A stretch of DNA of 64,000 bases from Polytrichum commune (Eukaryota; Streptophyta; Polytrichopsida; Polytrichales; Polytrichaceae). This document shows, one piece after another, positions 26,205 to 27,513 of this stretch. A program made the position numbers and the translations under genes. The notes under the pieces were generated by a model that did not search any database, was not told the origin of the DNA, and saw only the letters and a list, made by a program, of their open reading frames with translations. Numbering within the stretch: position 1 is the stretch's first letter; each line of letters opens with the position of its first letter. The stretch is taken from the NCBI GenBank assembly GCA_950295325.1, contig OX485803.1, positions 30,681,554 to 30,745,553 on the forward strand. The letters run 5' to 3'.

Positions 26205-27513
26205 TCGGGGGGGGCACTCCCTTGTATATTTTGCATACACCTGCGATAATGACCTATTAAAATGGGGGCTATTTACCTATGAGAAAGGATTATAAGGGAT
26301 GTTAATTTTTGAAATAATGGTAAATTGTTGTGATTATTTGCACCCTATTGGTAATTATAAATTCTTGGATGGTTGATTTTATGGTACCCTATATTACTTA
26401 TATGTATTTTTTTCCCCTGATTGCCCCATTCCTTAAAGTGTATGATACAGTAGAATTCTTGTTAGAAGCACATGTACAGAGTCAGAGAAACAAACATTTA
26501 CTAGGGTTTAGGGTTCAGGGTCACACTGAAGTCCGGGCAAAGCAAAACACTAAACAATAACAACAAAAGATTGCAATTACATGTCATTAAGCAACACGAG
26601 CCAACGAATAAAAGTTGTGTTGGATAACACAACTAGAAACCTTGAGGTCTTAGGGAACAAGCCAGCCACATGTGTCTCAAAGTCACATTTGCAAGGTTTG
26701 CAAAATCCCTACAATTGATGCCTTGATCTTCCAATCCTACACATTGGAGGAAAATCCCACGCCATGCAAGCAAAATCCACCTAAACTAGCTAGGCTACCA
26801 TTTACACATGTGGGAGATATGAGGGTACTCAAACTAAAATGATTACTACAGATTTCAAGGTATACTAATGATCATTCAGCCCTTTTTCCAAATTATATCT
26901 CCACATGTGTGAGATAGTACAAATTTAGCAGGTTTTATTTTTTATTTGAAATGAACTCACTCAATGAGTTTGCATCTACCTCATCTAAGGTGTAGATTTT
27001 GCTAGTTGATTCATACAGTAGAGACACAATTGAGATAATAGCATCCACATCAACCCACACACAACCACTCTCAACATACTTATATTTGTTGAGACCCGGC
27101 TGTTTTTTGAACCAATGGAGGTAAGCCATAGCAGTTGGGAAGAGCGTTTCTCTATTTCCGTTCTGGACTGCACGTTTCATCAAGTCAATGGGTTGCCAAC
27201 AATTGCCCCACTTAGTACCAACCTTCACCCTTATCTTTTGAACCCTTCCTATATAGAACATGCCATATTTTGGTGGCAAAGTATTTAATTTTTGAAACTA
27301 TCACTTTTTCTCCATGCTATTTTATATGTACCACTTAGGTAATTTAATCATGTTTTGTCAAATGCTATATTACATATAATCATGTTTCACAATCCCAAAG
27401 CACCCTATACTACATCTAATAATTTACAAATTTTATGCCAAATTTTTATACAAGACCCTATATTTTATCGCACGTAGTTCCTACGTTTTTTGCCAGTGCC
27501 CCCCCCCCCCGAG
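26205..27513. mobile_element. Poly-G-ended TIR element, copy B (1.3 kb)
   Basis: Left end TCGGGGGGGGCACTCCC; right end the complement of CTCGGGG(n)CACTGGCAAAAA, with 14 C in the right-hand run including the C of GTGC. Identical 9-mers ATGGAAACC flank it at 26196-26204 and 27514-27522. Just inside each end is a GTGCGATAAAA-type word (CCTGCGATAATG left, TTTATCGCACG right). The inner phrase ACCCTATATTAC is shared with copy C. It is the longest copy and the only one with a coherent open frame (26935-27279, minus). Confidence 0.8.
26935..27279 (-). pseudogene. Unknown coding relic inside poly-G-ended element
   Basis: A 114-residue frame with a protein-like composition: YGMFYIGRVQKIR near the start, KWGNCWQPIDLMKR, LHWFKKQPGLNKYKY, then VWVDVDAIISIVSLLYES and YTLDEVDANSLSEFI before the stop. 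I do not recognise the family. The predicted start is a TTG; the first ATG is 10 residues later (MFYIGRV). A TAG lies in frame about eight codons further upstream, so the amino end is probably missing or is an exon boundary. Position near one end of a TIR element suggests the last part of an element-encoded protein (possibly the missing transposase) or a captured host exon. No membrane segment or signal peptide is visible. Confidence 0.45.

Follow-up and report, generated by a model that had tools for sequence, protein, structure and literature searches.

The window analysed here is a stretch of 64,000 nucleotides of Polytrichum commune DNA (C1:30681554-30745553, from a genome of 408 Mb in 64 contigs), and it carries four short elements, E1 to E4, that lie between identical direct repeats and whose ends are built on C-W-C followed by a run of G (Table 1). 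Three of them are MITEs and the fourth, E2, is a gene-relic derivative, and all four are non-autonomous. A sequence-only reading of the window had already picked out the four elements and all are present, with each left tip one base further left than it had been placed; the identical 9-mers with a trailing C that were said to surround them were found as described. The ends were also said to mirror one another, which holds for E1, E2 and E4 but not for E3, whose right tip reads C(15)-G and lacks the AG predicted from its left tip. Both ends of E1 match the ends of E2 at 73-75%, in reversed orientation. The target of E3 is a CTTGGGACCCC(A/G)TGTGAA motif that is also present near 29840 (window 29838-29857 and 30288-30307), and by eye a TKGRRRCC-like sequence is common to three of the four window targets.

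Table 1. Elements E1-E4 and their parts in window coordinates; all target duplications were read from the sequence and from the run-pair scan, and fractions give the match to the subterminal box.
Feature	Position	Strand	Description
E1	729..1020	.	292-bp MITE; TIRs CTCGGGGGGTTCACT / CTTGGGGGGTTCACT
E1 left target duplication	721..728	.	ACACACAG
E1 right target duplication	1021..1028	.	ACACACAG
E1 left subterminal box	762..769	+	ACGTGCGA, 8/8
E1 right subterminal box	978..985	-	ACGTGTGT, 6/8
E2	26204..27513	.	1,310-bp non-autonomous element; ends CTCGGGGGGGGCACT / CTCG(12)CACT; holds transposase C-terminal relic
E2 left target duplication	26196..26203	.	ATGGAAAC
E2 right target duplication	27514..27521	.	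ATGGAAAC
E2 left subterminal box	26239..26246	+	ACCTGCGA, 7/8
E2 right subterminal box	27468..27475	-	ACGTGCGA, 8/8
E2 120-aa open frame	26935..27297	-	relic of C-terminal domain of ~1,500-aa protein; 35-40% identity to L053, L054 and L057 proteins
E3	29941..30287	.	347-bp MITE; G(15)/C(15) tips
E3 left target duplication	29933..29940	.	CTTGGGAC
E3 right target duplication	30288..30295	.	CTTGGGAC
E3 left subterminal box	29984..29991	+	AGGTGCGA, 7/8
E3 right subterminal box	30239..30246	-	ACGTGCGA, 8/8
E4	32125..32534	.	410-bp MITE; TIRs CACGGGGAGGTCACT / CACGGGGGGGTCACT
E4 left target duplication	32117..32124	.	TTTGGGGC
E4 right target duplication	32535..32542	.	TTTGGGGC
E4 left subterminal box	32159..32166	+	ACGTGCGG, 7/8
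E4 right subterminal box	32492..32499	-	ACGTGCAA, 7/8

The window was scanned for every G-run (at least 4) facing a C-run (at least 4) within 5 kb, with the tips placed 1-4 nt outside the runs. Among the resulting 931 pairs, the flanks were identical over at least 8 bp at E1-E4 only, and in all four the identity extended to 9 bp in one register. With shifted partners as the control (40 repeats), the mean number of matches was 0.575 for 8 bp and 0.25 for 9 bp. When the window was scanned blind to the G-runs, for an exact duplication combined with a symmetrical inverted repeat, only E2 and E4 were recovered at 8 bp (control 0) and nothing at 9 bp (control 1). The tips become symmetrical only when the first C is counted in the element, giving CTC/CTT, CTC/CTC and CAC/CAC besides the imperfect CTC/CG of E3, and the duplication is therefore 8 bp.

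The sequence-only reading had proposed a comparison of flanking 9-mers with controls across the genome. We ran it on a blind sample consisting of all 18 facing pairs no more than 1.6 kb apart among the first 100 listed places of the short-form end pattern CWCGGGGNNNNCACT, with the flanks unseen at choice (L029 and L030, fetched alongside, are not facing pairs of that kind and were left out of the 18), and it was 8-mers, not 9-mers, that were in excess. The flanking 8-mers were identical in 12 of the 18 pairs and differed by at most one mismatch in 17, compared to 1 identity in 306 when left flanks were set against the right flanks of other elements; that sole control match paired L011 with L012, which are copies within one shared repeat. 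Three of the five one-mismatch pairs count less because L023 lies in a G tract and L011 and L012 lie in the shared repeat. The exception in the sample, L019, joins the ends of two different elements; for its right end, an exact 8-bp partner lies at 470. The target duplication of the family is thus 8 bp, and a 9-bp duplication, which had been left as an option, does not agree with a 9-mer form found in just 2 of the 18 blind pairs. The other option, 8 bp with a fixed C, was right in its length. However, the C is the first base of the element, and the base after the duplication was C in only 5 of the 27 catalogued elements outside the window; the four-of-four trailing C inside the window is then chance or local bias. 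The catalogue from which this count was taken holds 30 elements and required an exact 8-mer for entry, and therefore it is no measure of the frequency of the duplication, which is measured by the 18-pair blind sample.

These results bear directly on the suggestion that the family might be Mutator-like on account of 9-bp duplications. Mutator-like elements also have terminal inverted repeats, a MULE gene is present in the genome (L042), and the 9-mers do match at 4/4 window elements. However, the 9-bp argument falls away because the duplication is 8 bp, with the 9-mer form and the trailing C as scarce outside the window as given above, and the two gene-bearing elements described below show no match to a MULE transposase domain. 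The family differs from Mutator-like elements in duplication length and in its gene, and the genomic duplications refute this reading, to which we leave practically no probability.

The short-form pattern CWCGGGGNNNNCACT occurs at 2,305 + 2,301 = 4,606 places in the genome, compared to 105 + 107 = 212 when it is reversed. There are 297 ends with at least 12 G, against 16 reversed, and their runs reach about 20. The homopolymer G tract had been taken as the defining end, and this was overstated, given 4,606 short-form ends such as CACGGGGAGGTCACT against those 297. In the fetched genomic ends the G runs are 3-8 long, a range biased to the short side because the sampling pattern excludes long G runs. 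The steadier end signal is a ACGTGCGA-like box that lies near all eight window ends. In 31 elements the box matched at 7/8 or better in 49 of 62 ends, which are related and not independent of each other, with the best match 20-52 nt from the tip; such a match was found in 46 of 5,000 random places and in 0 of 62 stretches at 60-92 nt of the same ends. Its usual place is 33-36 nt from the tip, and it lies deeper where the G run is long.

A function of the G tracts themselves, with the ends forming G-quadruplexes used by the transposase or by the replication machinery, might be read from the excess of ends with at least 12 G over the reversed pattern and from the variable run length. However, the short-form ends, in many of which an A follows G4, greatly outnumber the long-G ends and have exact duplications, and long tracts also occur elsewhere in the window, which is consistent with general slippage. 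We therefore regard such a function as highly improbable. Long G tracts are frequent in this window: outside E1-E4, poly(G)/poly(C) tracts of 9-22 bases are found, for example, at 1294, 11465 (11465-11486), 11615, 34724 and 61184. The long tracts of the family probably arose by slippage from a short G run and would be tolerated without being required. Copies with long-G tips carry target duplications, and such tips therefore did not block insertion or arose later.

E1 is 77-94% identical to eight fetched elements of 245-329 bp (94% with the genomic copy L015), E4 shares 95.9-97.8% identity with five fetched elements that are 408-410 bp long, and E2 has a 96% identical copy in L052, which was considered as a source element and turned out to be another short E2-type copy. 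The genome contains at least 150 matches to the 120-aa frame of E2 (150 of 1,000 candidates were scored). Over 103 residues, the E2 frame shares 39% identity with a frame of 263 aa from a CAC-ended element of 1.5 kb; this 263-aa frame in turn matches the C-terminus of much longer frames elsewhere in the genome. Compared directly with three proteins of about 1,500 aa, the E2 relic gave 35-40% identity with E values from 7e-28 to 2e-24. A fold prediction for the relic was poor (mean pLDDT 48).

Two complete elements that contain the long frame were fetched. The first (C3:23844933-23854635) is 9,703 bp long, has one stop-to-stop frame of 1,502 aa, starts with CACGGGTAGGTCACTTAGTGC, finishes with the mirror of CACGGGTAGGTCACTCTAAGG and is flanked by an exact 8-bp duplication, CATAGACT. 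The second (C5:40490851-40499346) is 8,496 bp long, has an interrupted frame of 358 + 1,180 aa, CACGGGGAGGTCACT ends and an exact 8-bp duplication, AAAGGTGC. They have in common the gene (80% identical DNA), the initial 229 bp and roughly the final 294 bp, and no alignment is found over the 3-4 kb or so that separates the 5' end from the gene (from L055 and L056 up to the gene in L053 and L054). No frame of at least 120 aa was found in the L055 and L056 parts of this region, and in the L053 and L054 parts frames were listed from 200 aa only. It is possibly a variable cargo or regulatory region.

For CAC-ended elements, the route of internal deletion can be seen directly. In two elements of 1.5 kb, the first ~310 nt of the C5 element are followed directly by its last ~1,190 nt (97-98% identity), and a 562-bp element likewise joins the first 231 nt (97%) to the last 332 nt (92%) of the C3 element. 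Both of the fetched gene-bearing elements have CAC ends, and no gene-bearing element with CTC ends was seen. A facing pair with long G runs at C1:41914368 was considered as a gene-bearing element of the CTC type, but its flanks differ and it is not one element. The assignment of a mover to the CTC-ended E1-E3 would thus be extended from two CAC-ended elements, to which E1-E3 are tied by the relic in E2, the box and the duplication. This is the weakest link in our interpretation.

The protein appears to be diverse in this genome. A third protein (1,518 aa) shares 49% identity with that of 1,502 aa, and the core of the latter (residues 601-1130) has at least 89 genome matches at 31-100% identity (81 of 296 candidates were scored). 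Among the matches listed, 12 have frames of at least 1,400 aa, and 9 of these 12 are without a stop inside the matched stretch; many of the listed gene copies are partial or have stops. No Pfam match was obtained for the 1,502- and 1,518-aa proteins at E up to 10, and PDB searches to the same E limit, with phmmer and with a three-sequence profile, gave no match either. The residues D707, E708, D826, D871, D873, H876, K879, N883, D1065 and E1068 are identical in all three aligned proteins. As read from these motifs, the central part would be an RNase H core. At the N-terminus, two cysteine/histidine clusters (FCIECRK at 203 and CFYCRDLL at 318) and a GRRGRPS stretch resembling an AT-hook were noticed by eye; the CFYCRDLL cluster is incompletely kept in the 1,518-aa protein. 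The C-terminal tail has a WWVGRVQ domain that is kept in E2.

The statement that the four elements form one TIR family, with unusual ends that do not readily reveal the superfamily, holds, and the two gene-bearing elements have narrowed the choice. Our best reading is a new transposase lineage of P-like design, which is neither Mutator nor canonical hAT. To the finer version, in which the ~1,500-aa protein belongs, far diverged, to the P-element (P/THAP9) group and represents an unrecognised P lineage, we give slightly less than an even chance. The size is different: the CWC-G family, as we call it, has a protein of ~1,500 aa in elements of 8.5-9.7 kb, whereas the Drosophila P protein has 751 aa and the P element 2.9 kb. 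In the available part of PMC7776569, P is described with an 8-bp duplication, TIRs with internal binding sites and internally deleted copies, and that of PMC8230255 gives D, D, [C/D]xxH, E as the signature of the P superfamily. With Drosophila P and zebrafish Pdre2, as far as these accounts extend, our family shares the 8-bp duplication, the TIRs and the internally deleted copies, and internal sites such as the box would be a further P feature. A candidate DDE set with DxxH, in the order D707, D826, D873xxH876, E1068, resembles the P signature. The DxxH-to-E spacing is 195, compared to 192 between D339 and E531 of Drosophila P and 199 between D414 and E613 of THAP9, and the D2-to-DxxH spacing is 47, compared to 36 and 40; however, the D1-to-D2 spacing is 119, compared to 73 and 70 (available parts of PMC7776569 and PMC8230255), and since our motif positions were chosen by eye from the conserved residues, the likeness is one at the level of motifs and not a homology from a search.

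Against membership in P stands the lack of any Pfam or PDB match at E up to 10, and therefore of any THAP or TNP-like hit. In particular, no N-terminal THAP zinc finger was matched by Pfam in the 1,502- and 1,518-aa proteins at E up to 10, and the protein of the CWC-G family has an extra C-terminal domain, unlike P/THAP9. A search of the genome with PF21789 gave no match, which shows little because its control matched nowhere either. The family would work in the manner of a P or hAT element, but because sequence similarity to both P and hAT was looked for and not found, we file it as neither.

The alternative that the family is hAT, moved by a hAT transposase like that of which a relic with a dimerisation domain (PF05699, E 1.7e-5) lies at 21515-21880 on the plus strand, could be suspected from the 8-bp duplication, the short TIRs and the MITEs, from this relic itself and from a hAT gene in the fetched locus L044. 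However, the protein of the two gene-bearing elements has no Pfam match, a C-terminal hAT dimerisation domain was found in it neither by Pfam nor by hhalign, and hhalign against a hAT protein of the same genome gave a probability of 0.2%. The hAT gene in L044 interrupts a repeat that is uninterrupted in L043, and it was rejected as the transposase. The target preference also differs: in the 30-element catalogue, after symmetrisation, a T in the third and an A in the sixth position occurred in 32/60, compared to 19/60 for T at 2 and A at 7, which is the preference of hAT. It appears to us improbable that the family is hAT. Novosib of green algae has an 8-bp duplication and is alike in duplication length. 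Pfam also includes a model for Kyakuja-Dileera-Zisupton (KDZ) transposases; no KDZ domain, and no Pfam match of any kind, was found in the CWC-G family protein. The likeness to KDZ lies in the duplication, which the available part of PMC12730594 reports as 8 bp for Zisupton and for Zisupton-1_PGr, a Dileera.

Taken together, we put at roughly 0.85 the probability that E1-E4 are non-autonomous members of a large cut-and-paste family with 8-bp duplications, for which the ~1,500-aa protein would be the mover. The family has ends of the form C-W-C-G(n)...CACT with the ACGTGCGA-like box, and the protein encoded by the 8.5-9.7 kb elements of the same family would act on them. Its zinc-finger-like and AT-hook-like N-terminal part may bind the ends, with the box as the likeliest site, and a core of the RNase H type (D707, D826, E1068 and D873xxH876) may excise the element and join it to target cuts staggered by 8 bp, the repair of the gaps then leaving the 8-bp duplication. 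MITEs would arise through internal deletion and be moved in trans, and slippage of the short G run would lengthen the tips. More tentatively than for a P lineage, we suggest that this could be an undescribed eukaryotic cut-and-paste superfamily. Its protein of ~1,500 aa would combine a zinc-finger-like N-terminus with a P-like DDE core and an additional domain at the C-terminus, and it would be diverse in one genome and the source of thousands of short elements with CWC-G ends. Text searches of the literature found no paper naming the CWC-G family.

A short DNA transposon that makes an 8-bp duplication is easily classed as hAT from that feature alone. The elements of the CWC-G family probably trace to a different transposase that Pfam misses, and therefore similar short elements elsewhere may be misclassified. 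The family supplies deleted as well as complete copies; its end is defined, and it has a box that is a candidate for binding and a conserved set of candidate catalytic residues, which makes a P-like origin directly testable.

Several other candidates were rejected. The DUF7869 protein in L036 was considered as the transposase, but its gene is part of another high-copy element, whose end reads CACTATATTCG and which only adjoins an E4-type MITE, and the tail of the protein, compared by BLASTP with the L027 and E2 frames, reached E values of only 0.083 and 0.22. The MULE gene found in L042 is separate from the L027-type frame of that locus. A 5.7-kb pair in L029 is not a single element, as its flanks differ. 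Single ends in L043/L044 and L032/L045 were set aside as evidence on the duplication: their similarity continues beyond the tip, and therefore the surroundings were duplicated and no target duplication can be read. No relatives were found in collections of viral contigs, genome contigs, plasmids (searched with E2 DNA only) or phages, and the Rfam and tRNA scans of the window, as well as PADLOC, were empty.

The separate DUF7869 (PF25273) element, which lies at L036:916 onward and at L051:8701 (reverse complement), is CACTA-like in its CACTATATTCG end. It has at least 105 copies (105 of 1,735 candidates were scored) with 95-100% amino-acid identity, most of these copies have stop-free frames of 504 aa, and it looks recently active. 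In the window, a fragment of a Tc1-like transposase (HTH_Tnp_Tc3_2, E 8.5e-8) lies at 51550-52077 on the plus strand. Three frames on the minus strand (30885-31286, 42362-42760 and 45297-45662) are alike by eye, have no Pfam match above the cut-off and resemble the tail of a LINE ORF2. At 59741-59779, inside a chromosome, there are 5.6 perfect copies of GGTTTAG, the telomere unit of the plant type. An inverted repeat of 73 bp, 96% complementary and with a 1-nt loop, occupies 20606-20752, and minisatellites are found at 55945-56133 (31-bp unit, 6.1 copies, 100% match) and at 53299-53662 (an array of 29/57/142 bp).
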